Below, piece after piece: positions 13,105 to 46,422 of a stretch of DNA of 64,000 nt. This DNA is from Harmothoe impar (lineage: Eukaryota > Annelida > Polychaeta > Phyllodocida > Polynoidae). The stretch lies in contig OX381705.1 in assembly GCA_947462335.1 (NCBI GenBank), positions 682,001 to 746,000 of the forward strand, in the 5' to 3' direction. The notes under the pieces are model-generated. The model was not told where the DNA came from and made no database searches. It worked only from the letters and a program-made list of their open reading frames with translations. The position numbers were made by a program, and so were the translations under genes. The number at the start of each line of letters is the position of its first letter. Position 1 is the stretch's first letter.

Positions 13105-14875
13105 ATGACCAGTCCCCTATTAGAGCACCCCCCTGTAGTTACTGAATGACCAGTCCCCTATTAGAGCACCCCCCTGTAGTTACTAAATGACCAGTCCCCT
13201 ATTAGAGCACCCCCCTGTAGTCACTAAATGGGCCGTCCCCTATTAGAGCACCCCCCTGTAGTTACTAAATGGGCAGTCCCCTATTAGAGCACCCCCCTGT
13301 AGTTACTAAATGGGCAGTCCCCTATTAGAGCACCCCCCTGTAGTTACTAAATGACCAGTCCCCTATTAGAGCACCCCCCCCCCTGTAGTCACTAAATGGG
13401 CAGTCCCCTATTAGAGCACCCCCCTGTAGTTACTAAATGACCAGTCCCCTATTAGAGCACCCCCCCCCTGTAGTTACTAAATGGGCAGTCCCCTATTAGA
13501 GCACCCCCCTGTAGTCACTAAATGGGCAGTCCCCTATTAGAGCACCCCCCTGTAGTTACTAAATGGGCAGTCCCCTATTAGAGCACCCCCCCTGTAGTTA
13601 CTAAATGGGCAGTCCCCTATTAGAGCACCCCCCTGTAGTTACTAAATGGGCAGTCCCCTATTAGAGCACCCCCCCTGTAGTCACTAAATGGGCAGTCCCC
13701 TATTAGAGCACCCCCCTGTAGTTACTAAATGGGCAGTCCCCTATTAGAGCACCCCCCCTGTAGTTACTAAATGGGCAGTCCCCTATTAGAGCACCCCTCT
13801 GTAGTTACTAAATGGGCAGTCCCCTATTAGAGCACCCCCCCTGTAGTAACTAAATGGGTAGTCCCCTATTAGAGCACCCCCCTGTAGTTACTAAATGACC
13901 AGTCCCCTATTAGAGCACCCCCCTGTAGTTACTAAATGGGCAGTCCCCTATTAGAGCACCCCCCCCTGTAATTACTAAATGGGCAGTCCCCTATTAGAGC
14001 ACCCCCCTGTAGTTACTAAATGGGCAGTCCCCTATTAGAGCACCCCCCTGTAGTTACTAAATGGGCAGTCCCCTATTAGAGCAGCATGTACCCCCCCCTG
14101 TAGTTACTAAATAGGCAGTCCCCTATTAGAGCACCCCCTGTAGTGACTAAATGACCAGTCCCCTATTAGAGCACCCCCCTGTAGTTACTAAATGGGCAGT
14201 CCCCTATTAGAGCACCCCCCTGTAGTTACTAAATGGGCAGTCCCCTATTAGAGCACCCCCCTGTAGTTACTAAATGGGCAGTCCCCTATTAGAGCACCCC
14301 CCTGTAGTTACTAAATGGGCAGTCCCCTATTAGAGCACCCCCCTGTAGTTACTAAATGGGCAGTCCCCTATTAGAGCACCCCCCCCTGTAGTAACTAAAT
14401 GGGCAGTCCCCTATTAGAGCACCCCCCTGTAGTTACTAAATGGGCCGTCCCCTATTAGAGCACCCCCCTGTAGTTACTAAATGGGCAGTCCCCTATTAGA
14501 GCACCCCCCCCTGTAGTAACTAAATGGGCAGTCCCCTATTAGAGCACCCCCCTGTAGTTACTAAATGGGCCGTCCCCTATTAGAGCACCCCCCCCTGTAG
14601 TTACTAAATGGGCAGTCCCCTATTAGAGCACCCCCCTGTAGTTACTAAATGGGCAGTCCCCTATTAGAGCACCCCCCTGTAGTTACTAAATGGGCAGTCC
14701 CCTATTAGAGCACCCCCCTGTAGTTACTAAATGGGCAGTCCCCTATTAGAGCACCCCCCTGTAGTTACTAAATGGGCAGTCCCCTATTAGAGCACCCCCC
14801 TGTAGTTACTAAATGGGCAGTCCCCTATTAGAGCACCCCCCTGTAGTTACTAAATGGGCAGTCCCCTATTGGAGC
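13105..14875. repeat. 41-base minisatellite, about 42 copies, overlapping the scramblase stop codon
   Basis: Tandem array of a 41-44 base unit built of TTACTAAATGGGCAGTCCCC and TATTAGAGCACCCCCCTGTAG. Length varies mostly through the C run (5 to 9). The units are very similar, with GGGCAG/GACCAG/GGGCCG variants. The last units (from about 14,828) are read in frame as the C-terminus and stop codon of the scramblase gene on the minus strand. Confidence 0.95.
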
Positions 14876-17800
14876 AGTACTAACCACCAAGAAGACGGCA
14901 GCCAGGCAGGTGGCCTTCACACGGACGTCAAGGTCAGCAGGGACTGCAAGTACAACACAATGTATAAACAAGGAGCATACTATGGTGGCCCAGGAGGCTC
15001 ACGTAAAAAAAGAAATTCAAAGTGAAATTTCTTTTTTTCAAAGTAAAGTTGTTATTTTTTCAAAGTGAAGTGGGTTTTTTTCAAAGTGAAGCGTTTATTT
15101 TAAAGTAAAAAAATTTCTTTTCAAGTGAAGTGTTTATTTTTCAAAGTGGAGCTTGTTTCAAAGTAAAGTTTTTTCTTTCAAAGTGAAGTGTTGTTTTTGT
15201 CAAAGTGGAGTTTCTTTCAAAGAATTTTTTATTTTTCACTTAAAAAAAAAAAGCATTTCTAAATTTATCTTTGAGGTGAGCCTCCTTGGCCACCATAGCC
15301 CTCAGTACTCAGAACCATCAGGCCATGAATGCCATAAAACCTAGTGTAGAAACCGCGACTTATAGGATAAGCCCAATGTTGGCGTGCTGCTTATACAGGA
15401 GTTTTTACGGTACTAAATTAACAATTTTGGGACCCCTTGTTAGGCTTCTGGCATCCGTCAAAATTTGTGGGGTGGTTAATAGGCAAGTTAGGCTTATACG
15501 CAAGGTTTTACTGTGGATGTGTTTTGGGCGTTTTAGGCTTCAAAAATTAGGGTAGGAAGGTCAGATTCTTTTTTTTTTAATATTGTTCAACGTATCTGGA
15601 ATGAGTCCGGAATCGCTGCAACAACTTGCAATATTACAAAATTGTTAAATATTCTTGTTAAAAAAACAATTTTCTGAACTCAGACAATTATTTAGGCTAC
15701 TAAAGTCAGCTTGCTTTAACTAACCAAAAAATTACTAAAATCTAGAAAAATATGAATATTTAATGTTACATTTGTAATGGTTGTGGAAAAATTATCTGGA
15801 GAAAGCGGGACTCGAACCCCTGACCTTCAGATCCATGGACTAGCTGCTCCACCACTGACCGCGCTGTACGTTACTGGATCGGTATGGTTCAGAGGGGAGC
15901 AGGATTACATGAATGATATCTCCTTGCGGGTTTACCACTGAGGCACGGGGAATCCGACCCCTACCCAATCATAATTATCTATCGCCCATGCTTTACGATG
16001 CAATTATTGGCCGTATTACATGTAAGTATAACCAATATGAGTCTACATAGAATAATGAATTCCCCCTCCCCCCTTGCTCGTCCATCAGCAGACTTTGCTA
16101 CATGGTGTGTGAGTATAAAGTCCATGCTTACACTTGATGCCAAACATGTCAGCCTTAGTGAGGGCCTCTCGGATCATGCCGCCCCACTGCTTGGTGATCA
16201 TACCCACCTCAGACGTAGAGTCAGGTGTGAGGATCTGAAACAAGGGTTGGAAGTCAGCCATGTTTCATTACTTCTAGTTTTATGGAATTGTGTGTTTTGT
16301 TCAGACCAGATTGAGGAGCAAGTGTTGACAACTAAGGGGGTTACATGGCAGGTGTCATGGCCACCACCAGCTTAAAAGGAACAGCGATTGTGTGTGCCGC
16401 AGATCCCCGTTTATAAGCCCTGGCTTATACTGAATTTAAGTGGTATATTGACCAGGCTTATAATCGGGGCTGGTTTATACACGGGGTAGTCCAGTATTCA
16501 AAAATATGAATTTTGAATTCCTCCGGTCAGAATATAAGCTGCTCACTTTGTAAATGATTCTATTTTGTATGAATAGAATTCTGGGTTGTACTCATGCAAG
16601 AAATATGCATATCATACCTTGACAAGCTCCACATATATCTTAGTTACTAGGTTCAAGATTAAGTTACTAACTAGTGGTACAATTCTAATTTTGACAATTT
16701 TTTAATTTTTTAAAGTTTTATTATTTTCCACTGATTTTTACCTTATTTTCAAGCCTCTGTGCATCAAGACATAACACAAGGGGCATGATTTGATCATTTT
16801 CTCCAGATCTCTACTACAAGAAGTATGACACATAGACCTGTAACCCTGAGAGTTTTTCCATGGTGAAAATGGATGGAATAGAGGTTTTTCTTACTAGGGC
16901 AGACACCCCACCCCGACTGACCAAGCCGAAACCGGAAACTGTGGAAATGTCATTAAATGTTTTTAGAGGGACACTATGGAAACAATCAGAAAAAAAATAA
17001 CATGGAAATTGGAGATTGGTTGAATTGGCACAGAATCAGCCCACCCATATTTCTTACCATTTTAGCATCCTTAATGATAACGTACCGTCGCTTTTAAGCA
17101 CCGGGTATTGAATAAGCGCCGGTCTTGTATAAGCACCGGGGGTATGGGAGTCATGAAATAATTCTTAAGCACTAAAGATGGATCTTGAATAAGCGCCGGG
17201 GGTAACCAGCCCTCCAAAGTTATAAGTGCCGGGGCACTCATACACGACGGTATGGTAGTTGTGGCATTCAGTGCACGATGAGATGAATGTGACTTACGGG
17301 GAACGGAAGGTCGCCCAGGCAGCAGATACAGTGGCAGGGGAAGAGGGGGCCGGACACCTTCAGTACCGGTTGGTGGTCCGCGTCTAGTATAGCCAGGTTA
17401 GGCTTTAAGAAGCTGCACCTACATAATGTACCACACCAGAGTTAGTACCACATAGATGTAGCCCCAGGGCCATTGTTGATGTCATCTATAGACCATCGTA
17501 GCAAGAAAGGGTAGCAAGAAAGACTTTTTCATAATAAAGTTGTGTTCACCCTAGTTTAAGTAGACTTCTCATAAGACCGTCTGCAAAGGCTATGTTTGCG
17601 AACATCTCTAACAACAGCAGAGTTAGAACCACATACTGTAAACGTATTAATTTTCGCTCAGTACATATTTTCGCGTTTTTAGCGCACATGTTTAAATGCG
17701 CGAAATTATGATGTGCGCGAAAATTATGCCCAGGAAATTAGCTTTCCAATGATGTGTAGCACTACATTTTGTATATATTGTTATTTGTATTAATAATGCT

Positions 17801-20800
17801 AATAGACGACTCAATAAATACTGTAAAACCCCTCCTATAAGACAAATTTTATTTGGCGTTTTTATTTATTATAAGCCTAATTCTTTTTTGTAATTTGGAT
17901 TTGGGCTAATAGGTGGGGTTTTAATACATTAAAATGAAGAGAAAACGATTTTTAAATCTATTTTGTATAGGAAATCTTTTTTTTTCTCAAGTTGGGGATG
18001 GGTGTGAGCTAGGGTTATTGGAGTAGTAAGCACAGTAGTAATACTGATCACAGTAAATGTATTTTAGAATTAGAAAGCTCCCCTGCATAGGCTAACTTGT
18101 CTTCAGAAGATCTGAGTCCCAAGACCAGGCATAACAATGAAAAACTGATCAATTAGCACTTTCTACTAATCATAAAAGCCCATCAACCAATTGGCTCAAA
18201 TGATGCTTTATAAGCTCAAAAAAGCTCTTTAGTCTAGAGTTCCCTATATCCGATCCCTAGAAACCCACCCCTCCTTTGTGCATAACAGTCTATATAATTA
18301 TATAGGATCAAATTCTTTGGGCTCTAATATCCTTCATAATTGTCCAATTTACAAACTGTAAAAAATGACATGTGGCTAAACATGTGATGCTTACAGCTGG
18401 GCGAAAATATGATTGCGCGAACATGTCTTTTTATGGTAGGTGCGCGAAAGTTTAGCTGCGCGAAAATATATACGTTTACAGTAGATATAGATGGCCATCT
18501 AGCATACACCTACACCTACACAGTACAACACCAGAGTTAGTACCACATAGATATAGATGGTCATCTAGCATACACCTACACCTACACCTACATAATACAA
18601 CACCATAGTTAGTACCACATAGATATAGATGGTCATCTAGCATACACCTACACCTACACCTACATAATACAACACCAGAGTTAGTACCACATAGATATAG
18701 ATGGTCATCTAGCATACACCTACACCTACATAATGTACAACACCAGAGTTAGTGCCACATAGATATAGATGGTCATCTAGCATACACCTACACCTACACC
18801 TACATAATACAACACCAGAGTTAGTACCACATAGATATAGATGGTCATCTAGCATACACCTACACCTACATCATACAACACCATAGTTAGTACCACATAG
18901 ATATAGATGGCCATCTAGCATACACCTACACCTACATCATACAACACCAGAGTTAGTACCACATAGATATAGATGGTCATCTAGCATACACCTACACCTA
19001 CACCTACATAATACAACACCAGAGTTAGTACCACATAGATATAGATGGTCATCTAGCATACACCTACACCTACACCTACATAATACAACACCAGAGTTAG
19101 TACCACATAGATATAGATGGTCATCTAGCATACACCTACACCATGTACAACACCAGAGTTAGTACCACATAGATATAGATGGTCATCTAGCATACACCTA
19201 CACCTATATAATACAACAGTTAGTGCCACATAGATATAGATGGTCATCTAGCATACACCCACACCCATATAATGCAACACCAGAGTTTGTACCACATAGA
19301 TGTAGCCCCAGGGTCATCTAGCATACACCTACACTTATATAGTATAACAGCAGAGTTAGTACCACATAGATAGATAAATTATAATGATAACCCACTCTGA
19401 TATTTTGATATGTTACAGTATGGATAGGTCCCAACCTTTGACTAAGTCGGGTGAGGAGTCCATACACCATTCTTAATAAATGTCATTAGGACAGAACTTT
19501 CATTTTCAATGTAGATATATCCATTCTGTGGAAGGGTGCAGTATCAATATGGCGTGGTCAATCACTTCTATATTTGGGTTGAGCATTGATTATATGTTGT
19601 TAATGACCCATGAGAAGTCTCAAGGGGTTTATATGCTATTTTGAGATAGTCCTAATGATCCTTAACACCACATAGATATAGCCCCAGGGCCATTGTTGAT
19701 ATCATCTATGGACCATCGTAGCAAGGAAGGGTGGTTTTAGTAGACTTCTCATAAGACCGTCTGCAAAGGCTATGTTTGCAAACATCTCATATCAGGAGAT
19801 TCGACCCCATACCCCATATCCCCTAATACTAACTTTGGCCTGAGCTATAAGAGAAGTGAACAGTTACCCTTGTTTGACGTAGCCGATCACGGTTCCCACC
19901 GGAGCCTCCACGATGACCTGGAAGGCGCAGCAGTCGGAGCAGGCGCAGCAGGAGGTAGCACCCGCACAGCACTTGAAGTCACGTATGATGCGCAGCACTT
20001 CCTGTACGAGGCAATGAACCGTCGGATTAGGAAAATGTAATAAATCCATCATCTCAAGAATCATTGTTGCATTTAAGGCATTTACAAAACTCAGAACCCT
20101 CAACTCAAAACTTTCTTACATCAAATTCAGAAATATGATATGTGTCATGTTCATGTATACTCCTCTTTTTTCTTTTACTACATCACATAAAATCTGAAAT
20201 AATTTCTAAAACTTTTATTATAACTACAATGATCAATTTGATAATTCTTTTTATCATGGAACAAGTCTTGAAAGGATATACAGTGGCTTAGAACCTACCC
20301 AGCTAGCAAAACTCATGTAAATTACATCATTTTAACATCATTTTCTGATTGGTGGTGACATCATTGGATGATGTCAATTGTCGTTCCCAAGATGTCACAT
20401 ATGCAAGAAGTTTTTACGTGTCACTTTGCATGGGTATTTTACATAAGTATATTTACATTAAAAAAAATACATATCAACGATATGTTTGAACTTAATAATA
20501 ATGACGTATATAATTGACTGGCTGTAAAACATGTCTGAAACGTATAAATTTAGATATGTCAAAAAGATGTGATATGGAGATATGTCCATGACATGTTGCA
20601 GGGATGACATTTATACCAGTTTTGAGTATACCACTTCCAAGTATTGATTATAAATCAGATAGGATATTTAAAATAACTCTGAGAGATTGTAGACATCATA
20701 TATAGCTATGTCCATTTTATGTCAATGTATGACATGTCCACAAGCACTCTGCATAGGAAGCACACACCTACTCTGTGAAAGACACTTTGCAGGTCTTTTC

Positions 20801-23800
20801 CATTCCTTACAGACACATTTATCCTAGCCAGGAGGCCGAGATGTGATATCAGCCCAAAGCCGGAATTTCTTCTTATACAATTTGAAAGGACACAGAAAAG
20901 GTATCCCATTATGTGCCTTGGCTGTCCAACTATAATTCACCAAGTCACTGTAATACAAGTAACACATTAAATGTTACTGAAGAAATTGAGTCCAATTTTG
21001 ACTCTTATTGCAGTATATAGAATTAATTTCATCCAACTTTTAATCAAGAATGGGGGAATGCTGATCAAAATGTGATGACATTGCAAAATGAGACGCCTGG
21101 TGTTGGAGCTCAGAACTATGATAGGATATAGTAATGTCGACTTATAGATGTCATATTCTGACAAGATTGTGATGTCATAAATATGTCATATTGGAATTAA
21201 TCCATACTCCTATTATTTTGACATCACGATCTTGTCAGAATGTGACCTATTATAGTTCTGAACTTCAACACTAGGGGTCTCATTTTGCAAGGCTGTCACA
21301 TTTTGATCAGCATTCATTCATTCTTCATTGAAAAGTTGGATCAAATTAATTGTATAAACTGCAATGAGGGACAAGGTTGGACTAAATTTCCTCTGTTATA
21401 TATAAGGTGTCACTTGTGTTACAGAGGCTTGTTGAAATATAGTCGGATAACCAAGGCACATGGGTGGACACCTTTTCTGTGTCCTTTCAAATTGTATAAG
21501 AAGAAATTCTGGCTTTGGGCTGATATCACATCTGGGCCTCCTGGCTAGGATAAATGTGTCTGTAAGGAATGGAAAATGCCTGCAAAGTACCTTTCACAGA
21601 GCAGGTGTTTGTTTCCTATGCAGAATGCCCATGGACATGTCATACATTGACATAAAATGGACATAACTATATGTCTACAATCTCTCTCAGAGGTATCATA
21701 ATTATCCTATCTGATTTATAATCACTACTGGGGAGGGGGTATACTCAAAACTGGTATAAATATCATCCCTAGAACATGCTTGTAGATATCTCCATATCAC
21801 ACCTTTTTGACGTGTCTACATTTACATGTTTTAGACATCTTTTACAGCTAGTCATATATATGCCATTATTGTTAAGTCCAAAGGTATCACTGATAAATAT
21901 GTCTCTTTTATATAGATATGTTTATATAAAATACACATAAATATTGTTACATCAAAAACCCATGTAAAAGGACACGTAAAAACTTCTTGAGTATGTGACA
22001 TCTTGGGAACGAAAAATGATATCATGAAATTACTAGTTATTTTTATGTAAGGTGCTAGCTGGGTAACTGTCTAAATACCAACTTTATGGTGTGTATGGCA
22101 AAGGCCTGCTGCTTGTTCTGACACTATTCCTACCCTGAGCTCATAACAGCTCTACAGTTATTCTATCAAACATTCCCCATGACAGAATACTACAGTGGGT
22201 TATGTAGAAAGTGTACTTACATTGTCAAAGTTGTCTGTGATGTGGAGGGTGAACCCGCGTGATTGTCGACAACACTGCCGCATGCAGGCGTCAGACTCTA
22301 ACCAGAATGTAAACAAACACTATAATGATACCAGTATCTACATCTACAGTAACTCTAACCAGAATGTAAACAAACACTATAATGATACCAGTACCTGCAT
22401 CTACAGTAACTCCAACCACAATGTAAACAAACACTATAATGATACCAGTACCTACATCTACCTCACAGTAACTCTAACCACAATGTAAACAAACACTATA
22501 ATACCAGTACCTGCCTCTACCTCACAGTAACTACCAGAATGTAAAACAAATAAAGCACAATAATCTCACCAGTATTTGCCTCTACCAGACAGTAAATCTA
22601 ACCAGAATGTAAACAAACCCTATAATGATACCAGTACCTACATCTACAGTAACTCTAACCACAATGTAAACAAACACTATAATGATACCAGTACCTACAT
22701 CTACAGTAACTCTAACCACAATATAAACAAACACTATAATGATAATAATACCAGTACCTGTCTCTACCACATAGTATCTATAATCATACCAGTCTCTACC
22801 AGACAGTAAATCTAACCAGAATGTAAAACAAATAAAGCACAATAATCACATTTCCATATTTGTATTGAATAAAGAATTGCTTGTCTAGATGTATCCCATC
22901 TCCCCCCCCCTAAACAAAGAAAAAAAGAAAAGAGAAAAGAAAGGAAAAGAAAACACTGCCAAAAAACAATTTGAGTGTAAAGTCTTCAAAAGCAGAGTGG
23001 AAAGCCTTGGCTACCTTCAGCGCAGTAGTACACTTGTTGTCCAACCGAGTTCTTGATGACGTATTTGTTACATGTCTCAAAGTTGGTGAGAACTGGAAAT
23101 AACAAAGTGTTGTGGAACAGTTTGTGTAAGTAAAACAAGCCCAAAGAAAGAGCAGGTATTTACATCAGAATCAATTCTATTCTAATTATAGTGGATTAGA
23201 GAATTTTGAAATTTACTAGGCCTGATAATATCAATGTGTTTCAAAATCTAAAATCACATTGTTTTAGAATCTAAAATCATATCCACAACAGGTTTAGCTG
23301 AGCTTGTTCCATAGAACTTATGACTTCAGCATTTCTTACTGAAGCACTATTATCTAGTAAATAAATGACATTTTCAATAATTGACATGTGACCTACTTTC
23401 GAGCAGCTCCATCTGCTGGTGTATTAGGAGTTGGTCGACCGAGACGAGGTACTCGAGACCGGCGGGTACTCCGGGAATAGGCTCTGCCATGGGGACCTGT
23501 GGTGTCACGGGTGGCGGCAGCACAGCGGCTCCTGTATTGGGGGGTGGCAGACACCCAGATAACAAAACTCGCAGTAAATGGCATCATTTATACATAATTC
23601 TGTGATGGGTGATGACATCATTTAATGTCGGTTTTGGTCACCAAGATGTCTTATATGCAAACGGTTTTTACATGGCTTCTGGCATGGTTTTTTCATCTGT
23701 GTATTTTACATCAAAATATTTACATGAAAAAGACATGCTCAACTTTGATAGAAGACAATAGTGACATATACATGCCCAGCTGTAAAAGACATCTAAAACA

Positions 23801-26800
23801 TCACCTACCGGGGGGAGGGGGGGGGCATGCCCGGCTGCCCAGGGGGAGGGGGGGGCATGCCCGGCTGCCCGGTCTGCACGTGGTTAGAGTTGGTGTACTT
23901 ACCGGGGGGAGGGGGGGGCATGCCCGGCTGCCCGGACTGCATGTAGTTAGGGTTGGCGTACTTACCGGGGGGAGGAGGGGGCATGCCCGGCTGCCCGGTC
24001 TGCACGTGGTTAGGGTTGCTGTACTTACCGGGGGGAGGAGGGGGTATGCCCGGCTGCCCGGGGGGAGGAGGGGGCATGCCCGGCTGCCCGGTCTGCATGT
24101 AGTTAGGGTTGCTGTACTTACCGGGGGGAGGGGGGGGGCATGCCCGGCTGCCCGGGGGGAGGAGGGGGCGTGCCCGGCTGCCCGGTCTGTACGTGGTTAG
24201 GGTTGGTGTACCTACCGGGGGGAGGAGGGGGCATGCCCGGCTGCCCGGGGGGAGGAGGGGGCGTGCCCGGCTGCCCGGTCTGCACATAGTTAGGGTTGCT
24301 GTACTTACCGGGGGGAGGGGGGGGCATGCCCGGCTGTACTTACCGGGGGGAGGGGGGGGCATGCCCGGCTGCCCGGTCGGCACATAGTTAGGGTTGGTGT
24401 ACTTACCGGGGGGAGGGGGGGGCGTGCCCAGCTGCCCGGTCGGCACATAGTTAGGGTTGGTGTACTTACCGGGGGGAGGAGGGGGCATGCCCGGCTGCCC
24501 GGTCGGCACATAGTTAGGGTTGCTGTACTTACCGGGGGGAGGGGGGGGCGTGCCCAGCTGCCCGGTCGGCACATAGTTAGGGTTGGTGTACTTACCGGGG
24601 GGAGGGGGGGGCATGCCCGGCTGTACTTACCGGGGGGAGGGGGGGGCATGCCCGGCTGCCCGGTCGGCACATAGTTAGGGTTGCTGTACTTACCGGGGGG
24701 AGGGGGGGGCATGCCTGGCTGCCCGGTCTGTACGTAGTTAGGGTTGCTGTACTTACCGGGGGGAGGGGGGGGGCATGCCCGGCTGCCCGGTCTGTACGTA
24801 GTTAGGGTTGCTGTACTTACCGGGGGGAGGGGGGGGGCATGCCCGGCTGCCCGGTCTGTACGTAGTTAGGGTTGGTGTACTTACCGGGGGGAGGAGGGGG
24901 CATGCCCGGCTGTACTTACCGGGGGGAGGGGGGGGCATGCCCGGCTGCCCGGTCTGTACGTAGTTAGGGTTGGTGTACTTACCGGGGGGAGGAGGGGGCA
25001 TGCCCGGCTGTACTTACCGGGGGGAGGAGGGGGCATGCCCGGCTGTACTTACCGGGGGGAGGGGGGGGCATGCCCGGCTGCCTGGGGGGAGGAGGGGGCA
25101 TGCCCGGCTGCCCGGTCGGCACGTAGTTAGGGTTGCTGTACTTACCGGGGGGAGGGGGGGGCATGCCCGGCTGTCCGGTCTGTACGTAGTTAGGGTTGCT
25201 GTACTTACCGGGGGGAGGGGGGGGCATGCCCAGCTGCCCGGTCTGTACGTAGTTAGGGTTGGTGTACTTACCGGGGGGAGGGGGGGGCATGCCCGGCTGT
25301 ACTTACCGGGGGGAGGGGGGGGGCATGCCCGGCTGCCCGGTCGGCACGTAGTTAGGGTTGCTGTACCCGGCCATGGGCTGCATGTTGACAAGAGACGGCG
25401 TGTATCCTGACGGTTCGTGTAAAGAAAGGCAAAACTGGATATTAAAAACCCTGCCTTATAATGTTGCACTAAATCAGTAAGTATGATTGACTGGTAAGGG
25501 AGTGATCATATTTTAACAACAGGGGGGGTGGTGGATTTTTTACCCCCCCCCATCGAGGGGTCAAATTTTTTTACCCCCCCCTTACGGCCGAAAATCGGCT
25601 CGCACGCGGGCCCTTTGAAGCATAGTTACGTGCGGGCTTTTTGGCTCAAAACAGGTTTAATTATTTTGAACCCCTCCCCCCAAGAGGGGTCCAAATTCTT
25701 TTGCCCCCCCCCAGTCAAGGGGTCACAATTTTTTTGCCCCCCCCCCCCAAACCCACCACCCCTCCTGTTGTTAAAAAATGATCACTCCCTAAACTACCTT
25801 AATTTTAATCAAATTAAATTGTGCAAGTGTTGTGTATTTCATGATCTTCCTTTCAGTTTATTTCATGGTCAATACAACATTCACTAGTCTTTAGTACTAG
25901 AGATCCTGTATCTCATGCCTCCCCATGGGATACAGTGTTCCCGTATAACATGGCCTGTGACGTCATCATTTGTTTAGATTTCTATGGCCATTTAAATGCA
26001 ATTTAACATATTTCGGCCAGAAAAAAAAAACATGATTTAGGGCAAATGCCCATGGAGTCAATTTAGTATTGTTCTTACATCGGTGAGTCTAGCCCTGCAT
26101 CCCACTCAGCGTTTGGCTTTGTGGGATACGGCGGAACCTACCATAGTTTATATTAAGTGAGATCAGAAGAGATGCCTCACAAATGTAGCTGCCACACATT
26201 GTAATGTTCTCGTATGGAGGAGCATATTCTGGCATGCTTGGTTGCAAAATGTTGTTACACAAGACTACAGTAAATTCTCGTGTAGAAGCCACGGCTACCG
26301 TAAAATCTTGCGCATAATCCTAACTTGCACATTACTTTGACAAACCATATAAGCCTCAGGGAGGGTCTGAAATTTACTAATTTAATATTTTAGTATAAAA
26401 CTTGCATATAAGCCGCACCCGACTTTGGGCTGAACCTATAAGCCGCACCGGCAGTCTAACCCCTGTGCAGCCCTGATGAGACCTCTGTGCGGCTTATAGG
26501 ATTTTCCCAAATCCCTTGAGCGGCTTATACGTGAGTAATGATTAATAAGTGAGGTTTTACGGTAAGTGGCTTTGCTTCATTATTCCAACACTAGATGGCT
26601 CATGTGAGAAACCTCCCCTGTCTCTATAGGCCTGGCGTCACTAGGCCATCCGCCTCGTGTGCAATCGGAAACGGAACCGGAAGCGGAACCCGTGACCTTG
26701 ACCTTTGTAAATATTTCTAAAAGAGATTTGGGTGACGTTAGGGTAGGTAAAAGGGTTCGCCAACCGTAACTGAATCGTTTTTTTGTAGTTATGATAGATT

Positions 26801-32065: not shown

Positions 32066-32067
32066 AA

Positions 32068-33008: not shown

Positions 33009-33344
33009 CAGGCACCCACCTGTGATTACCCCTAGGTAGTACCCTCCCCCCCCCCCCCCACACACACACACACCTCACACATGTACTTCTGTCCTCAGCA
33101 ACGACCACACAGATGACCATTCACAGCAGTGCCCCCTTGTGCAAAGTGAGGAAAGCACACATTTACCAAATCCATATTTAGGGAGATCTACTATTTTTGC
33201 TAAAAACACCACTGTAAAACTGAGACTGTATCTACATATCTATGTAATACATATTAAAGGATTATTTAAAGCAGCATATCTGCAGTGCCATATTCTGGTT
33301 TTCTCATATTATTCAAAACCTCCGGATGTGGTCTTCAAAAGGTA

Positions 33345-33530
33345 TCACTACTGAACATGTCTTTTTCATGTAAATATTTTGATGTAAAATACAGACATGA
33401 AAAGCCATGTAAGAAACCACGTAAAAAACATTTGCATATAATTCATGTTGGTGACCAAAACCGCCATCATTAAATGATGTCATCACCCATCACAGAATTA
33501 TGTATAAAAGATGCCATTTACTTCGAGTTG
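33345..33530. mobile_element. Partial copy of the fold-back element family
   Basis: Reverse complement of much of 23,564-23,760 (CATGTAAATATTTTGATGTA, TTGGTGACCAAAACCG, GATGTCATCACCCATCACAG). Confidence 0.7.
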
Positions 33531-33795
33531 TGGGATGTGTCTGTGTACATCAAATTGATATCTTATGAGCAATTTATCATCCACGGTGGCATTAATTTGC
33601 TGGGCAAAGCTCCTCAGTATGATAGTGATTTAGTAGAATAAGAAAAAAAAATTCCTGTTATAAACCTGCAGACTGTATCCATCTCATATTTTTGTCAACT
33701 GTATTATCACATTTGTATAGATTGAATATATAATACTGGTATAGAGGCCATAACACAATCTATTATCATAATATAGTCAGACATGCATTATAGAA

Positions 33796-36089: not shown

Positions 36090-36385
36090 TCCTGAAGGAC
36101 CCCCCCCCAGTTCACACCCCATGATGCCTTAGTCTGTGGTGAGTTTCCTAAAGGACCCCCCCCCACTCCCACACCCCATGTTGGCTCAGTCTGTGGTGAG
36201 TTTCCTAACGGACCCCCCCCCCCCCAGTTCACACCCCATGTTGTCTCAGTCTGTGGTGAGTTTCCTAACGGACCCCCCCCCCCCCAGTTCACACCCCATG
36301 TTGTCTCAGTCTGTGGTGAGTTTCCTAAAGACCCCCCCCTTTCACACCCCATGTTGTTTAGTCTGTGGTGAGTTTCCTAAAGGAC
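36090..36385. repeat. About 60-base minisatellite overlapping the CRAL-TRIO stop codon
   Basis: Five units, each with GTCTGTGGTGAGTTTCCTAA (A/C)GG plus a C run plus TTCACACCCCATGTTG. On the minus strand GGTCC...TTAGGAAACTCACCACAGACT is the end of the CRAL-TRIO coding sequence, so the array repeats the last codons into the 3' UTR. Confidence 0.9.
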
Positions 36386-39300
36386 CCCATCAGCCCCCAG
36401 TCGCCCAGCTCATCCTCCACCTTGGTCGGCCGCTTACTCTCGTCTACCGCCATACTGCTCGCGTTCAGCTCCAACTCGGCACTCTTCTTTATCACCTCCT
36501 CTTTCCAGCTCTCTGTCGGGTAAATATGAAAAAGATTGTTTGAACAACCTCCCTTTGGAAACAGGTATAATGGTATCATGAGGATGGTTGGGTGAGTGGT
36601 AGAGGTCATACAGGTGTGTGGTAGAGGTCATACAGGTGTGTGGGTGAGTGGTAGAGGTCATACAGGTGTGTGGTAGAGGTCATACAGGTGTGTGGGTGAG
36701 TGGTAGAGGTCATGCAGGTGTGTGCGTGAGTGGTAGAGGTCATACATGTGTGTGGGTGAGTGGTAGAGGTCATACAGGTGTGTATGTGAGTGGTAGAGGT
36801 CATACATGTGTGTGGGTGAGTGGTAGAGGTCATACAGGTGTGTAGGTGAGTGGTAGAGGTCATACAGGTGTGTAGGTGAGTGGTAGAGGTCATACAGGTG
36901 AGTGGTAGAGGTCATACAGGTGTGTAGGTGTGTGGTAGAGGTCATACAGGTGTGTAGGTGAGTGGTAGAGGTCATACAGGTGTGTGGTAGAGGTCATACA
37001 GGTGTGTAGGTGTGTGGTAGAGGTCATACAGGTGTGTAGGTGAGTGGTAGAGGTCATACAGGTGTGTGGTAGAGGTCATACAGGTGTGTAGGTGAGTGGT
37101 AGAGGTCATACAGGTGTGTGGGTGTGTGGTAGAGGTCATACAGGTGTGTGTGTGAGTGGTAGAGGACATACAGGTGTGTAGGTGTGTGGTAGAGGTCATA
37201 GAGGTGTGTGGGTGAGTAGTAGAGGTCATACAGGTGTGTGGGTGAGTGGTAGAGGTCATACAGGTGTGTGGGTGAGTAGTAGAGGTCATACAGGTGTGTG
37301 GGTGAGTAGTAGAGGTCATACAGGTGTGTGGGTGAGTGGTAGAGGTCATACAGGTGTGTGGGTGAGTAGTAGAGGTCATACAGGTGTGTGGGTGAGTGGT
37401 AGAGGTCATACAGGTGTGTGGGTGAGTTGTAGAGGTCATACAGGTGTGTTGGTGTGTGGTAGAGGTCATACAGGTGTGTATGTGAGTGGTAGAGGTCATA
37501 CAGGTGTGTAGGTGAGTGGTAGAGGTCATGCAGGTGTGTGTGTGAGTGGTAGAGGACATACAGGTGTGTAGGTGTGTGGTAGAGGTCATACAGGTGTGTG
37601 GGTGAGTAGTAGAGGTCATACAGGTGTGTGGGTGAGTGGTAGAGGTCATACAGGTGTGTGGGTGAGTAGTAGAGGTCATACAGGTGTGTGGGTGAGTAGT
37701 AGAGGTCATACAGGTGTGTGGGTGAGTGGTAGAGGTCATACAGGTGTGTAGGTGAGTAGTAGAGGTCATACAGGTGTGTGGGTGAGTGGTAGAGGTCATA
37801 CAGGTGTGTGGGTGAGTTGTAGAGGTCATACAGGTGTGTTGGTGTGTGGTAGAGGTCATACAGGTGTGTAGGTGAGTGGTAGAGGTCATAGAGGTGTGTG
37901 GGTGAGTGTTAGAGGTCATACAGGTGTGTAGGTGCGTGGTAGAGGTCATAGCGGTGTGTGGTAGAGGTCATACAGGTGTGTAGGTGTGTGGTAGAAGTCA
38001 TACAGGTGTGTAGGTGAGTGGTAGAGGTCATACAGGTGCGTGGGTGAATAGTAGAGGTCATACAGGTGTATTTTCTTTCATGTCCTGTCTACAAGGGCAC
38101 TCCGTTCTGGAACATCTATAAAGCTAGTGATTCATAGAGTTCTATGCGGATGTACATTGAATACTCACTGACAATGTCCATAAGTGGACCCGCATCACCG
38201 CCGTACTCAGTGGGTAGCATCCGTTTGGGGATGGTTTTACGCAGAGATTCCTTCGAGCCTTTGTGGAAATGCAGCTGCAAGTTTTGAGAAATAGAAATAT
38301 AAGTTGAAAAATAGAAATATAAGTAAAATCCAAATTAAATAATTAAAACCATTCTTAAAGGAAATTTTTAATTGAGAGGCCGGACCACTATGCCTCATGT
38401 GAGATGTTGCCTCTGCTGCTTCTAGCCCTCCCCCTACTGACCGTCTGCGGGAATACTAGGCCTATTATAAAAAACTATTGTAACAACGTTCTATAAGTAC
38501 TTAACTTTATATATCAGTAGATAAGAAGAGTAATGGAATTGAATAATTTGCTTACGCGCTTCTTAATCTTCTCCTTCATGAAGATTTTGAGGAGTTCGTA
38601 GAAGGCGGTGAACAAGGACGGAGTGTCGTAGTAGTGGATAGCTTTGTTCCTGGTGGGGTACACGTCCTGAAAATACATCATGTTGAAGAAACAAAGGGAT
38701 TCAACAGAGAAGGGATAACAAATATTGGACAGCGTTGTTTTTATTATTATTATGTAAGGAGACCAACATAGTTTTAAATATATATGCTACAGTACAGTAT
38801 GTCTACAGTATTTCCCCGTGTATTAGCCCGGGCTTATACAAGTACTAACTGGTAAACTGACCAGGCTTAAACACGGGGCAGGCTTATACTCGGGGCAGGC
38901 TTATATTTCTTTAGCTGTAGAAACGCTCTGATACCTTCTTATAATTTTCAGAATTACCTAGTTTCCGACACATTTACTGCAATATTTCCAATAATTTTCT
39001 CACCAATTTAAGCTTTATTTCTCTTTAAAATGGCTAGGAACATAAATAGGGGTCATATTGCCGAAAGAATTATGTAAATACTGCAAGTAGGAGTGGAGTT
39101 ATGGCCTGAAATATGTTTTTTATTGAGCATATATTGCCCCCCCCCCCGGGCTTATACTCGGGGCCCGGCTTATACAACACTACCATAAAACCTTGTGTAT
39201 AAGCTGCGGCTAGTACGCAAATCAGATCGGCAGTGTGGCTTATAGCATCAACCCAGGGTCAGGGTGCGGCTTGTACGCGAGTTTTTGCCACTATGGTACT

Positions 39301-40508
39301 GTACTAAAATCGGCACATTCAGAGCGGCTTATAGGCTTGGCATTAACTCAGGGTGCGACTTATACGCCAGTTGGGCTTATACGCAAGGTTTTAGGGTAAG
39401 TCACCCTTTTGCCCAGGCTTATACAAGGGGCAGGCTTATACACGGGCCCCGGCTTATACACGGGGAATTACAGTAACTGCAGAAATGCGTGTTACCTGCC
39501 AGCACTTCATGCACTTTGAGAGCAGGTCCCGGGTGAACATCAAGACGTGCTCCTTCCCAAAGAGTCCAAAGTCGAGGAGGATGACGACGCCGTTCACCTG
39601 GACGCCTTCATCCAGCAGCATGATGTCAGAGTTCATGAAGCCCAGCTTCATCACCAGACCGTAGTCCAGGGTCGACGGGTCAAACGCACCTACAGGTAAT
39701 ATATATAGACTGCAGTACAGGGTCAAACGCACCTACAAGTAATACATATACACCGTAGTACAGGGTCAAACGCACCTACAAGTAATATATATACACCGTA
39801 GTACAGGGTCAAACGCACCTACAAGTAATATATATACACCATAGTACAGGGTCAAACGCACCTACAAGTAATATATATACACTGTAGTACAGGGTCAAAC
39901 GCACCTACAAGTAATATATATACACTGTAGTACAGGGTCAAACGCACCTACAAGTAACATATATATACACCGTAGTACAGGGTCAAACGCACCTACAAGT
40001 AATATGTATACACCGTAGTACAGGGTCAAACGCACCTACAAGTAATATGTATACACCGTAGTACAGGGTCAAACGCACCTACAAGTAATATATATACACC
40101 GTAGTACAGGGTCAAACGCACCTACAAGTAATATATATACACTGTAGTACAGGGTCAAACGCACCTACAAGTAATATATATACACTGTAGTACAGGATCA
40201 AACGCACCTACAATTAACATTTATACACCGTAGTACAGGGTCAAACGCACCTACAAGTAAACACATATACACTGTAGTACAGGGTCAAACGCACCTACAA
40301 TTAACATATACCGTACCATCGCGATTAAGCGCCGGGGCGCTGTTCAATTTGGCGAGGCTCTTACACAGGCGCTTATACAAGACAGGCGCTTATTCAAGGT
40401 CATGATTTTAGTCCTTCAGAAGAATTTGGGTACCCCTATACCCCCGCACTTATTCAAGACCAGGCGCTTTATCGCGACGGTACGGTATACACCGTAGTAC
40501 AGGGTCAA

Positions 40509-40548
<40 letters not shown>

Positions 40549-43500
40549 TATAGTCCAGGGTCTAACGCACAACAAGTAATACATGTAGACCGTAGTACAA
40601 GGTCAAACAAGTAATACAGGTAGATGCACATAGACATAGACGTAGACCGTTTTACAGAATCAAATGCACCTACGTACAACACACACGCACCATAATCATG
40701 GGTCAAACGCGCCTATAGGTAGACCTAGAGTTAAACACACCTACAAACAACACATATAGACCGTAGTATAGGGTCAAACGCACCTACAAGTAATCACATA
40801 GTTAATTTAGGGGGAAAAAGAGTAAAATTTGTGTCCTGGCCCAGAGCTGAAAATCCCGGCCCATAGGTTTCTTGAGCTACTGGCCTGAGTGGCCCACAGC
40901 TGAAAAAGTTAGTGTCTACCCCCTCCCTCCCTGCCAAGATGTGCCTCTCAGTTAAGTCCTATGACTAATGTTGACTTAATTGAACTCCCTCTCTCTGTCT
41001 ATGACTATGTCTCTATTTTGTTATTGTTTTACTATGACCAGTAGGTGGTATTACTAGCAGGTATATATATATATACCTGTCTATGACTATGTCTGTATTA
41101 TGTTATTGTTTTACTAAGGGAGTGATCATTTATTATCAACAGGGGGGGGTGGTGGGTTTGGGGGGGGGGCAAAAAAATTTGGACCCCTTGACCGGGGGGG
41201 GGCAAAAAAATTTGGACCCCTCTTGGGGGGGGGGGCAAAAAAATTTGACCTGTTTTGAGCCAAAAAGCCCGCGCGTTACTATGCTTCAAAGGGCCCGCGC
41301 GCGAGCCGATTTTCGACCCTAAGGGGGGGGGGTAAAAAATTTTGACCCCTTGACCGGGGGGGGTGTAAAAAATTTCGCGCGCTCCGCGCGGAAACCCACC
41401 ACCCCCCCCCTGTTGTTAAAAAATGATCACTCCCTAACACCAGTAGTAGGGGGGGTGGTTAACACAACATTTTTGGGGGGCCCATCCTAAAATATGGTAC
41501 TCATCTTCGCAAACAAGAATATCACCTTTGTTTTTGAATTTGAGGACTGTAACCCCCTTCGTCACCCCCTCCGAAAATAAAAAGTCGGAAAATATTAAAT
41601 TAATTCAATTTTAATTCATTTTTTGATTCTCTGAGGTATTTAGTCACTTGAAACATGCATGAAACCACTTTGGGATTCAATATAAAAATATGGTTCACTG
41701 AATTGAGTTATTTTGAAGTCCCCGAAAAATCCAAGATGGCCGCCATGAGCCATAAACACCCCTACAAAGGACTTTCCTGACTTAAAACATGTATAAAACC
41801 ACTTTGAGGTGTAATATAAAAGTAGGGTACACTAAACTGGGCTATTTAGAACTTTTTGAAAAATCAAAGATAGCCGCCTTCAGACATAAGGTGCTCACAT
41901 AGGCCTTGTCTCACACTAAACATCCTGCAAATTCTTGCACGGAAGCCTACTCCTTGTATAACATAGGAGAATCCTATAAGTTGTACCTTAATTGAGCCTG
42001 TTTCTTGGCAACCTTTTTTGGTACTATGGTATAATTCAAAAAGTCATAGTAATGGTGTGGACTAACTAGTTAGTACTAGTATTGATCGACAGGGGTAGTA
42101 CTAGCCTTCCCACCGGTGACGCTGTGTCATCACTACTAGCTTCTACTACTGCCAAACATGGACAATTAGAAATTCCATGCTGGAACTACATCGTTTTCTT
42201 GGACATTAGCCTAAAATAATGATAAAACCCAACAATTATTCTTCAACTTAGTTTAAATCGTTCCATTTCTTACATATGCAAAAAGGGTAATGCATATAAT
42301 CTATTTAGTCACTGTATATTGGTAAAGTGATATTGTATACTACCTACCTCAACCTGGTGCCTATTATTTCTAAGATTCATTGAGGGAATAGCTAATTCAT
42401 AGGTAACATAGCACTCATGTTAACCTGCTCTTTAAATCATAAATGTCAATGCATACATACAGACTAACTTAGCATTGTACTTTAACACCAATGGTTTGGG
42501 TTGACACGTTGTTAACAAGTAACAATGTGACCCAATCACTATCTGTACATCTCCATGTACATTTTTTTCATTCTTTGTGATTAACTGGTATTCTGAGACA
42601 TATCTCACATCACACTGTTTTGTGAATATGTTCCCATTGTTATTAGTTGCACTCATTAATCATAGTTTGGATTAGCTAGCTTTTTGATATGAACAGTTTA
42701 CCCTTTATCATGGGAACCAAATTCCCTTTGTTTGAGATTCTGTACATGTTGGCAGTGTAACATTCATTTTCCTCTTTACCTTTTCACTGCCATACAAAAG
42801 ATGAGTGCATTTTCTTGAACAGTCTATGGGGGTTGGTAATAGATTATTGGCACTGTCAACAAATAACATATCAACGAGCTGATTCTATATATTCCCCCAC
42901 CTCTCCCACTCAGCGATGCCCTCCTATCAGTATCTCCATTGGTAACTTATGGTATTTCCATTGGCAAACCACTTTATTGCTGAAATCCATGCCTGTATCA
43001 ACACTGAGGTATTTCCCCCATGGGGGGGGGGGTAGTCACTCTACGTTGGTAACTACCCACCGCCATACCACTGCATGCACCTAATACAGGATGTGACCGC
43101 CTGTCTCTTCCTCACACAACGCCTATGGATAGAGGGGAGGGGAGGGCGGTTAGAAGGTTCTGATGGCTAGGAGAGGGCAGGGGACTCACAGAAAGTTTAC
43201 ACAGCCTTGGCTGGGGAAGGAGGGAAGAGTCTATCCATATCCCCATCCCCTCCTCCCCTCTGTGCTCATGGCAGGACATCCCCAGGTACGATCTTCTAGT
43301 AAAACAAGCATAGGACACAGACCATTCCCCCACTCCTAAAGCAGCCAGTATGACTACTGTGATACAATCCCTCATCTTTCACTTCCAATGCTAATAAGTA
43401 TCTTCCTTTGATCTTATAGCTGTGTAAACATCATAGCCAGGATACTTATTGTAAAATGAAAGGGTAAAGGTTATAGGTTAGACTATGCCCCAGGGGCTAT

Positions 43501-46422
43501 CCCAATCAGCACCCTGCACATTTCAAAATACTGAATCCTCCCCTGCCTCCCTAGAGACAACAGTCACATGCAGGTATACAAATGAGTGCAATGAACAGGG
43601 GTATTCATGTACCATATGTATCATAGACACCTAAACAACACACATTTACTGCCTCTATTTCTGAGTTACCAGCCCCTATTTTTGAATTACTGCCCCTTTT
43701 TTTTGTAGGCCCACCACCCCCACCTTCCAGGATAGTTTGGGGTACTCATTTAAAACCTGAGTGAACCTCTCCGGTATTTCCCTTGATATAGCCACAGCCT
43801 GACTACACATGCTTGAAGTGGATGTCCTTTGTGGGAACGCTTTCTTTTGGGTGGGGGCATTTTCATCGGGCCGCTGTCTGTAGTATCTGATTAATATCTT
43901 ACCCTGGGATTCTGTAGACTTAATGTCCTTATGACCTTTGCTCTGCCTAACCCTACTATAGCTAGTTCGTCAGTAAATGAGCTCAATTCATTTTGCAATG
44001 CAGTGATTGTATTTCTGAAGCTCACACCTGGTGGTTTCAGCTACATTATGTTTTCACATAAATGCATCAGCTTGTTTGAGAGTGAGAACCCATGTGCGCA
44101 TGTTGTAGTGTTCTCTTGATGTGAGGGGTGGCTTATACTATGAATTTTTGAATTATACCACAGTACTAAAAAAAAAGTTGCCAAGTACCAGACTCAAGGT
44201 ACAACTTATAGGATTTTCCTATGCTATACAAGGATCAGACTTCTGTGCAAGAATTTGCAGGATGTTTAGTGTGAGACAAGGCCTATGTGAGGACCTTATG
44301 TCTGAAGGCGGCCATCTTTGATTTTTCAAAAAGCTCAAAATAGCCCCGTTTAGTGTATTCTACTTTTATATTACATCTCAAAGTGTAGTTTTATAACATG
44401 ATTTAAGTCAGGAAAGTCCTTTATAGGGGCGTTTATGGCTCATGGCGGCCATCTTGGATTTTTTGAGGACTTCAAAATAACTCAGTTTAGTGAACCATAT
44501 TTTTATATTGCATCCCAAAGTGGTTTCATGCATGTCTCAAGTGAGTACATACCTCAGAGAATCAAAAAATGAATTAAAATTGATTTATTTTAATATTTTC
44601 CGACTTTTTATTTTCGGAGGGGGTGACGAAGGGGGTTACAGTCGTCAAATTCAAAAACGAAGGTGATATTCTTGTTTGCGACGATGAGTACCATATTTTA
44701 GGATGGGCCCCGCAATCTTAACTCCAATTTTCCAGATTAACCACCCCCCCTACCAGTAGGTGGTATAACTAGCAGGTGTATATATATATATATATATATA
44801 TATACCTGTCTATGACTATGTCTGTATTATGTTATTGTTTTACTAAGACCAGTAGGTGGTATTACTAGCTGGTTTATATATATATATAACTGTCTATGAC
44901 TATGTCTGTATTATGTTATTGTTTTACTAAGACCAGTAGGTGGTATTACTAGCTGGTATATATATATATATATACCTGTCTATGACTATGTCTCTAGTAG
45001 GTTATTGTTTTACTAAGACCAGTAGGTGGTATTACTAGCAGGTGTATACATACCTGTTCTGATGAGCACCACTTTCCTGCCTTCATCATCCTTACCGGGT
45101 AGAGGAACGTTTAACCTGCAAGTTACCGATCACGGTAAGGAAATTCACATGAACGACTGATCTGTGAAGGATGTGGCAAACTGATTGGGAAAATTGGGAA
45201 AGCTATTCAATACATGATTTTTCGAATGACATAGAGTTTTGCATGTCCCACACCATGATACATCTAAAATTGTTAGTGCATGCCCTCTTATCATAGTGAA
45301 GGGCTTTTTTTATTTCACTGAAAACAGCTCCCCCAAGGTTCAAATACTCCCTACTTAAATGGGCATTCTCACCACTCACACTTAACCACATAGTAGACTA
45401 GAACAGTACTAAAATTATGAGTGGGATACGCTTGGTGATTATGCCACTTTAACCCAAATGGACCTGTTCAACACTAGAGAAGCTTCTTATTAACAAGACT
45501 AAATTAACGACAGTAAACTCACGCCATGTCCAGCAGTTTGTCCATGGTGGGGTCGAGGGGGTCCATGCCACAGAACCAGTCAGGGACCCCCTTAGTGGGA
45601 CTGCAGCGTACAGTCAGGAAGTTATCCAGCTTCTCCTGTGCCTTCAGCTGGCTGAACTTACCCGACCGCAGGAACCGTAACAAGAAGTCATCGTCTGAAA
45701 CAGGAACCGTAACAAGGTTAGGTCCAGTTAGTGTTAATTCAGCAGCAGGAACCGTAGCAAGAAGTCATCATCTGAAACAGGAACCGTAACAAGGTTAGGT
45801 CCAGTTAGTGTTAACTCAGCAGCAGGAACCGTAGCAAGAAGTCATCGTCTGAAACAGGAACCGTAACAAGGTTAGGTCCAGTTAGTGTTAGGAACCTGGC
45901 AGCTAGAACAGTGAGGTGGTATTTACTAAAAGTGACAGGAACCGTGACAGGAACCGTGACAGGAACCGTGACAGGAACCGTGACTGGAACCGTGATGGAA
46001 CCGTGACTGGAACCGTGACTGGAACCCTGACAGGAGCCGTGACAGGAACCATGACAGGAACCGTAACTGGGACCGTGACTGGAACCGTGACTGGAACCGT
46101 GACAGGAACCATGACAGGAACCGTAACTGGGACCGTGACTGGGACCATGACTGGAACCGTGACTGGAACCAGTTTAGTTAAAGAAGGATAAGCAACTCTT
46201 TTTTTTTCTTGACTTTAAGAAGACAACAGACTGTCTCAAAGTGAAGAAGGTTGTTTCTATTGCCTTACCTGTCCTACAGGTGAGGTGGGGCTGTGCCTTG
46301 ACCCATGTCCTGAAGGTCTCTATCTGTGAGGCGCGTTGTTTGGGATCCTCCCCTAGCTCCTTCTTGGCCTTCTTTAATGACGCTGCGTCTAAGGTACACG
46401 TGTAACCACCCTCCTCAGACAT
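36358..46422 (-). CDS. CRAL-TRIO lipid-transfer protein (alpha-tocopherol transfer protein/clavesin-like), seven exons
   Basis: Cytosolic carrier of a hydrophobic ligand such as tocopherol, retinoid or phosphoinositide (family knowledge; ligand unknown). Coding exons: 46422-46269, 45694-45523, 45115-45054, 39689-39496, 38666-38556, 38274-38169, 36512-36358. All junctions are GT-AG with matching phases, giving 317 aa. The CRAL-TRIO-N helix part includes TLDAASLKKAKKELGEDP and DDDFLLRFLRSGKFSQ. The lipid-binding domain runs from LNVPLPGKDDEGRKVVLIRT through GVQVNGVVILLDF, AIHYYDTPSLFTAFYELLK, FHKGSKESLRKTIPKRMLP and TEYGGDAGPLMD, then KSWKEEVIKKSAEL. This order fits alpha-TTP-like and clavesin-like proteins; which subfamily is unclear. 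The start MSEEGGYTC has no better upstream ATG. Minisatellites sit on exon 2 and 4 acceptors, the exon 3 donor and the stop; intron 3 (5.4 kb) holds nested transposons. Confidence 0.9.
36593..38070. repeat. 30-base minisatellite, about 48 copies
   Basis: Unit GTGTGTGGGTGAGTGGTAGA-GGTCATACAG, with 18-base short units. It fills most of CRAL-TRIO intron 6. On the minus strand the 30-base period gives a long artificial frame of Thr-His-rich repeats. Larger-scale duplication is visible (37,143-37,460 resembles 37,540-37,850). Confidence 0.95.
38804..39475. mobile_element. MITE with TACAGTATTTCCCCGTG ends, CTTATAC motifs, containing a nested MITE
   Basis: Ends TACAGTATTTCCCCGTGTAT and the reverse complement of ATACACGGGGAATTACAGTA. 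GGCTTATAC(A/T)CGGGG motifs recur inside. A related element with ends TACCATAAAACCTTGTGTAT / ACGCAAGGTTTTAGGGTA is nested at 39,181-39,398. It ends about 20 bases before CRAL-TRIO exon 4's donor. Confidence 0.7.
39671..40305. repeat. 43-base minisatellite (about 15 copies) repeating the exon 4 acceptor
   Basis: Unit AGGGTCAAACGCACCTACAA-GTAATATATATACACCGTAGTAC. The plus-strand CAAACGCAC/CTAC is the 5' edge of CRAL-TRIO exon 4 (GTAG/GTGCGTTTGACCC on the coding strand). Every unit in intron 3 keeps that acceptor with 13 exon bases. Decayed units continue to about 40,800. Confidence 0.95.
40309..40487. mobile_element. MITE with TACCGTACCATCGCGAT ends and GCGCTTAT motifs
   Basis: Inverted repeats of about 25 bases (TACCGTACCATCGCGATTAA / TTTATCGCGACGGTACGGTA). 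GGCGCTTAT motifs recur inside. It is inserted in the 43-base minisatellite. Confidence 0.75.
41118..41434. mobile_element. PIF/Harbinger-like MITE, TAA duplication (copy B)
   Basis: Same ends (GGGAGTGATCATTT...) as 25,498-25,789, with TAA at 41,115-41,117 and 41,435-41,437. The empty site can be read from intact minisatellite units (TTTTACTAAGACCAG). Confidence 0.85.
41447..44752. mobile_element. 3.3-kb element with about 600-base terminal inverted repeats
   Basis: Arms at about 41,447-42,042 and 44,142-44,752 are reverse complements with scattered differences. Both carry GGATGGGCCC..., TTTTTATTTTCGGAGGGGG, a CCAAGATGGCCGCCAT-type YY1-like block and ATACCATAGTACC-like inner edges. The ends are TAGGGGGGGTGG / CCACCCCCCCTA. 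CCAGTAG flanks both sides (41,440-41,446 and 44,753-44,759), a 7-base duplication confirmed by intact minisatellite units. The 2.1-kb interior has no long ORF, so it is non-autonomous. The class is uncertain; hAT-like is possible. Confidence 0.85.
45694..45890. repeat. 79-base tandem repeat carrying the exon 2 acceptor and exon start
   Basis: Two extra copies of TTTCAG/ACGATGACTTCTTG plus the next dozen exon bases lie upstream of the true CRAL-TRIO exon 2. The decoy junctions are at 45,771/45,772 and 45,848/45,849. The copies run into in-frame stops with no donor near, so they are decoy acceptors and not exons. Confidence 0.9.
45936..46172. repeat. 12-base minisatellite (GGAACCGTGACT)n
   Basis: About 19 copies. 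GGAACCGT also occurs at the exon 2 edge and in the 79-base repeat next door, from which the array may have grown. Spurious Val/Thr-rich frames result. Confidence 0.85.

Follow-up and report, generated by a model that had tools for sequence, protein, structure and literature searches.

Do tandem repeats gather at exon edges in this locus and, if so, what becomes of the splice signals and final codons that they copy? We addressed this in a window of 64,000 nucleotides, the whole stretch of DNA analysed here, from one haplotype of the polychaete Harmothoe impar. Two adjacent genes were rebuilt on its minus strand: a scramblase gene (SCR) of 11 coding exons running from 30048 to 12651, and a CRAL-TRIO gene (CRL) of seven exons running from 46422 to 36358, with 32 splice junctions between them. 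CRL forms a single open frame of 317 residues that matches Pfam CRAL_TRIO (E 1.5e-28) and structures of alpha-tocopherol transfer protein (E 1.6e-23). The C-terminal GSFRKL(A/T)xD is common to all five CRL homologues fetched (of 72), and because CRL ends as they do, we take its stop to be correct. SCR gives a 268-residue open frame without exon 3, and the joined protein (exon 3 omitted) matches positions 6-220 of the 221 in Pfam Scramblase (E 2.9e-74). In this assembly the frame of exon 3, which contains a C9 run, is off by one; omission of the exon preserves the frame. The closest named relatives were hemichordate proteins for SCR and Lingula proteins for CRL, at 54-59% identity. Two plus-strand frames of 12-27 kb (stops read as X) returned no Pfam family, because SCR and CRL both lie on the minus strand.

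The end of SCR had to be redrawn. A preliminary description of this DNA had put the SCR stop inside a 41-bp array. All five SCR homologues fetched (of 56), however, continue through ...(A/S)xFL(I/V)DFM(F/Y)FE, and within the window a C-terminal end of the FLIDFMFFE type was obtained only when exon 10 (last base 14885) was spliced to exon 11 (12704-12651), whose acceptor reads ttcatttccag/GATTTC. The C-terminus of the homologues, the Pfam match and the in-frame exon 11 together place the stop beyond the array. Since exon 11 lies past the array and in frame with exon 10, the array sits in intron 10, which is 2.2 kb long and opens with it; the first, partial unit starts at the exon 10 donor. SCR is a warning that arrays can mislead gene finders into placing a stop or an exon end within them.

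Table 1. Exons and tandem arrays of the two genes, in window coordinates (a slash marks the exon-intron junction).
Feature	Coordinates	Strand	Basis and remarks
SCR exon 11, last coding exon	12651..12704	-	encodes DFMFFEAPKQRGQNQRY*; joins exon 10 in frame
41-bp array, ~42 copies, SCR intron 10	13110..14876	-	TRF and unit listing
SCR exon 10	14885..14943	-	gene model; donor GTG/GTTAGT
SCR exon 8	17298..17412	-	gene model
72-bp array, ~13 copies	18482..19372	-	TRF; ~1 kb from SCR exon 8 acceptor
SCR exon 6	22221..22297	-	gene model
57-bp array, ends at SCR exon 6 acceptor	22295..22744	-	TRF and unit listing; 3 exon bases per unit
63-bp array with shortened 35-bp units, SCR exon 3 end plus donor	23811..25366	-	TRF
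SCR exon 3, to first GTAAGT donor	25307..25406	-	gene model
60-bp array across CRL stop codon, into 3' flank	36100..36388	-	TRF
CRL exon 7, ends in true stop	36358..36512	-	gene model and homologue ends
CRL exon 4	39496..39689	-	gene model
43-bp array across CRL exon 4 acceptor	39677..40310	-	TRF
84-bp array starting at CRL exon 3 donor	44787..45052	-	TRF
CRL exon 3	45054..45115	-	gene model
CRL exon 2	45523..45694	-	gene model
77-bp array across CRL exon 2 acceptor	45668..45890	-	TRF; 27 exon bp per unit
12-bp array, upstream of 77-bp array	45932..46170	-	TRF; outside the edge-array count

Arrays were taken from 76 TRF rows. After overlaps were merged, 15 arrays had a score of at least 100, a period of at least 10 and a position inside 12651-46422; (CA) and (TA) runs and arrays outside the SCR and CRL genes were left uncounted. 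An extended set of 25 adds ten weaker or period-8 arrays, among them a two-copy 20-bp repeat at 38284-38324, 10 bp upstream of the CRL exon 6 acceptor, which was counted in this set only. Seven of the 15 strong arrays contact an edge within 10 bp, namely the donors of SCR exons 3 and 10 and of CRL exon 3, the acceptors of SCR exon 6 and of CRL exons 2 and 4, and the CRL stop; the other eight touch no edge. Eight array-bearing boundaries had originally been described. The seven contacts uphold most of that list, but the array assigned to SCR exon 8 lies about 1 kb off, and the supposed SCR stop is the exon 10 donor. The SCR exon 8 acceptor itself sits in a lone copy of the 72-bp unit (17452-17413). 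This copy carries TACTAAC, a branch-site consensus, and the 72-bp array contains 10 exact TACTAAC.

Elsewhere in the window, the segment 3380-8269 contains an integrase gene (Pfam rve, E 7.7e-14), a packaging-ATPase-like sequence with a weak match (Adeno_IVa2, E 3.3e-5) and further long ORFs on the minus strand, and we take its genes to be those of a probable Polinton/Maverick-like element. Long reverse-transcriptase ORFs (RVT_1) occur at 1175-3274 (E 3.2e-39), adjoining the integrase-bearing element, and at 48928-50652 (E 5.9e-37). Related repeats at 20307-22015 and 32065-33532, in inverted and direct orientation, are 71-80% alike. Upstream of SCR and CRL lie five more strong arrays (47265-48011, 52541-52956, 57240-57522 and 62668-63865), beside which no adjacent exon was recognised; the 26-bp unit of the array at 62668-63865 includes CTGACAGGTATG, and an assembly gap of 200 N (57037-57236) stands beside an 11-bp array.

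How much of each exon do the units contain? At four edges the answer was clear, as each match beat 1000 of 1000 shuffles: the unit at the SCR exon 3 donor holds a 60-bp stretch of the exon with one gap, that at the CRL exon 2 acceptor 27 bp of coding sequence, that at the CRL exon 4 acceptor 24 bp of a 32-bp stretch, and that at the CRL stop 29 identical bp. This last 60-bp unit encodes GSFRKLTTD plus the stop. At SCR exons 6, 8 and 10 and CRL exon 3, units had 0-4 exon bases and an exon match not above shuffles, and the arrays there may merely abut the edge. The claim that the unit includes the splice signal or final codons each time is too strong: units at four edges have 24 or more coding bp, those at the other four 0-4 exon bases. 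As a control, arrays away from edges were set against the exon edges nearby; p was ≥0.32 in four of the five comparisons and 0.059 in the fifth (a 66-bp array against the CRL end).

Without exception, the edge arrays have their extra copies beyond the functional exon, towards the intron or the 3' flank. The direction of copying could be read at CRL exon 4, where the array has 15 matching sites and its unit contains exon sequence that lacks 8 bp. The undeleted length was found, by eye, in four of five fetched homologues; because the decoys carry the deletion and these homologues do not, copying ran from the exon, as source, into the intron. The unit of the 12-bp array resembles ACGGTTCCTG of CRL exon 2 with a score of 27, reached by none of 1000 shuffles. 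In CRL intron 3, an additional copy of the 84-bp unit lies near 41081, past a probable inserted element (41117-44757) that splits the array. The inverted ends of the element (41473-42051 versus 44136-44715) are 92% alike, and 41117-41438 also matches 25494-25790 at 83%. Since this array was apparently split by an insertion, some arrays are not new.

Copies of an edge bring copies of its splice signal. The array at SCR exon 3 has 23 copies of GTAAGTAC, and GTAAGT was present at all 23 of its donor sites, whereas GT was present at two of three sites in the CRL exon 3 array. At acceptors, AG was found in 15 of 15 sites for CRL exon 4, 5 of 5 for SCR exon 6 and 2 of 2 for CRL exon 2. In the SCR exon 10 array, the first units listed have TT where the donor GT would fall, and thus no splice signal there. 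We then took each copy as the real site and read the resulting frame. Among acceptor copies, the full frame was obtained from 1 of 15 (CRL exon 4), 1 of 2 (CRL exon 2; the unit listing has three copies, one of them unmatched by the site search, so two were tested) and 1 of 5 (SCR exon 6; five sites tested, with seven similar sites present), in each case from the exon-proximal copy only. At the CRL exon 3 donor, none of three decoy sites gave the full frame.

None of the 23 donors at SCR exon 3 gave the full frame in this assembly, the exon-proximal one included, because the C9 run moves exon 3 by one base. The stretch at 58505-58926 holds what is probably an exon, rich in proline and glycine, of a third gene on the minus strand, and was uncounted in all tests; a two-copy 24-bp repeat begins 3 bp past its donor, its frame changes at a C run, and the 72-residue part tested had no Pfam match. 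As this exon (58558-58926), like SCR exon 3, shifts frame where Cs run together, either an assembly error or an allele could be responsible. The 23 units at SCR exon 3 include six of 35 bp and two of 64 bp. A reading of this array as one long coding exon or in-frame repeat domain was rejected, given these unit lengths and stops in three of three frames; because it breaks the frame and has stops in all three, we regard the array as mostly intronic.

Are seven contacts more than chance would give? By coverage there was no excess: arrays cover 27% of the region and touched 6 of the 32 junctions (19%), and 4 of 32 junction-centred 40-bp windows had a close local copy. Junction-centred self-similarity, tried as proof of an excess, came out opposite, since 32% of 800 random non-coding windows had such a copy; among 600 random windows outside arrays, 5% did. 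Arrays lengthen after birth, however, and we therefore judged origins to be a better count than coverage. In an origin-event null, each array was collapsed to a single unit and placed at random, with up to 60 bp of exon allowed. Over all edges, 1.13 contacts were expected versus 7 observed for the 15 arrays (P 5e-5; 10 bp tolerance), and full-length arrays in the present-day sequence gave a similar expectation of 1.11 (P 5.5e-5). When non-array non-coding DNA was scaled to 50% or 33%, allowing for later insertions, the expectation rose to 2.13 (P 0.0024) and 3.06 (P 0.02), respectively. For splice edges alone, 6 contacts were observed versus 1.08, 2.05 and 2.94 expected (unscaled, 50% and 33%; P 4.3e-4, 0.01 and 0.054). 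Four units extended across an edge by 10 or more exon bp versus 0.65, 1.23 and 1.76 expected (P 0.003, 0.028 and 0.086), and the 25-array set had 8 edge contacts versus 1.51, 2.84 and 4.07 (P 4e-5, 0.0046 and 0.038).

Counted as origins, arrays at exon edges are in moderate excess in this window, which was picked because the pattern had been seen. The earlier judgement of too many for chance is therefore borne out by the origin-event null, weakening to P 0.02-0.09 with scaling, and contradicted by the coverage count. These results do not establish the proposed cause, a duplicating process aimed at splice junctions: a stop codon is among the four clear cases, other arrays in the two genes and upstream are unconnected with any exon edge, and four of the eight edges contribute four exon bases or fewer.

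We put at roughly 0.6 the probability that the SCR and CRL edge arrays are mirage-type minisatellites, a kind already known from amphioxus. Coding sequence in the units at four edges and copies that always lie outward of the exon argue for this reading. The boundary-spanning unit, one criterion for a mirage, was clear at the SCR exon 3 donor, at the acceptors of CRL exons 2 and 4 and at the CRL stop. The analysis establishes that the arrays exist, how both genes are built, that four units derive from coding sequence and what the tested decoys do to the frame. The proposed mechanism is as follows. Tandem duplications of about 10-90 bp would arise in many places of a repeat-rich genome and would expand via slippage or unequal exchange. 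If a duplication spanned an edge, the outermost, exon-proximal copy would remain functional and the extras would land in the intron or 3' flank; because a functional copy is kept next to the exon, selection would tolerate the event, and duplications within exons would be purged. The arrays would later lengthen, lose frame and keep their decoy splice signals, which the spliceosome must ignore because their use would truncate the protein. We infer this duplication and expansion, its neutrality and that the animal itself splices at the right copy. As the array at the CRL stop codon behaves like the others, the pattern appears to concern exon edges in general, not splicing as such.

A neutral account predicts about one to three edge arrays versus the seven seen and so may be incomplete. 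One rival account, which we regard as unlikely, is survivorship: arrays would have been born at random in introns that were once short, and later insertions would have diluted or removed the interior arrays, those at edges being anchored by the exon. The expectation rises to 3.06 of 15 once non-coding DNA is shrunk to a third, CRL intron 3 resembles an insertion-split array, and dispersed or inverted repeats make up at least 6441 (28%) of the 22954 bases that are neither coding nor in arrays, as judged by comparison within the window alone. Even so, P remains 0.02 for all edges and 0.054 for splice edges only, and survivorship alone leaves unexplained why some units hold 24-60 coding bp. Exon edges could instead be mutational hot spots favoured for tandem duplication, for example if sequence or transcription made AG/GT borders prone to breakage. 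Such a preference would fit the 7 of 15 arrays at edges, a 2- to 6-fold excess over the origin-event nulls, and the several unrelated amphioxus genes described in the available portions of two reports (PMC3087553, PMC3902484). It is quite improbable in our view, however, given that the clear cases include a stop codon, that coverage shows no excess, that the strict crossing count gives P 0.003-0.086 with 8 of 15 arrays off edges, and that the one window was selected after the pattern was noticed.

Two further accounts fared less well. Under the Rogers model of intron gain, the arrays would mark introns born from the duplication of AG/GT-bearing exon sequence; the units do carry AG and GT, and the available portion of the globin paper puts such gain forward for amphioxus (PMC3087553). 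Yet when seven units were compared with the opposite intron end, p was 0.32-0.85 save for one TA-run match (0.012). Because the units are unlike the far end of their own intron, intron gain receives no support, and we consider it very improbable here. It is equally hard to credit that the contacts are coincidental and the copy numbers or frame shifts assembly errors. The absence of excess by coverage, the N gap and the frame shifts at C runs, seen in SCR exon 3 and in the 58.6-58.9 kb exon, speak for this reading, but the coding-sequence units at four edges beat all 1000 shuffles and the origin-event P ranges from 5e-5 to 0.02.

The mirage reading has a bolder extension, that exon edges, stop codons included, are favoured birthplaces of minisatellites in this genome, with coding sequence spreading outward time and again into introns and 3' flanks, and that the spliceosome always picks the exon-proximal copy among dozens of decoys. 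We find this extension doubtful as a whole. The decoys at issue are near-perfect, with 23 GTAAGT donors in the SCR exon 3 array and 14 decoy acceptors in the CRL exon 4 intron. If edges were preferred birthplaces, the genome would be a natural test bed for splice-site choice among identical neighbours; if edge arrays were common, their length variation could change splicing between individuals or tissues.

How do these arrays compare with known systems? Our search of the openly licensed literature, which omits most subscription papers, found no genome-wide test of edge arrays. The available parts of the accounts of amphioxus huntingtin and VCBP mention tandem repeats and no edge arrays; in those parts, amphioxus VCBP3 introns contain partial exons with splice sites. 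An intronic VNTR of ABCA7 likewise is an intron array bearing on splicing, and the portion of its description compared here does not derive its unit from an exon edge (PMC5954066). As in the Rogers model, cited in the accessible part of PMC3087553, exon edges bearing AG/GT are duplicated in SCR and CRL; unlike in that model, no unit is common to both ends of one intron.

The closest parallels come from amphioxus, and the lead to its "mirages" in the preliminary description was right in kind: the available portions of the literature describe boundary-spanning repeats in Adh3, globin genes and PGBD5, and somatic instability at Adh3. In the globin report, as far as its text was available, tandem repeats occur at exon-intron boundaries of globin genes, the somatically variable repeats of Adh3 (units of 10-72 bp) are cited under the name mirages, RT-PCR suggested normal splicing despite the boundary repeats, and such repeats are considered possibly general in cephalochordates, with intron gain proposed (PMC3087553). 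The SCR and CRL arrays resemble those of Adh3 and of the globins BflGb6 and BflGb9, as excerpted there, in having boundary-spanning units at both acceptors and donors and many copies of AG or GT with the functional one at the exon (PMC3087553). They also resemble lancelet PGBD5, whose boundary tandem repeats are described, with troponin C cited, in the accessible part of a second report: repeats of 60 and 108 bp overlap exons 3 and 4 and abut splice sites, in 2-3 copies in one assembly and 7 and 6 in another (PMC3902484), whereas the arrays described here are longer and the edges more numerous. Unlike the amphioxus mirages, those of SCR and CRL involve eight edges in two adjacent genes, including one stop codon, with up to about 42 copies, and they thereby enlarge a small set of reported genes.
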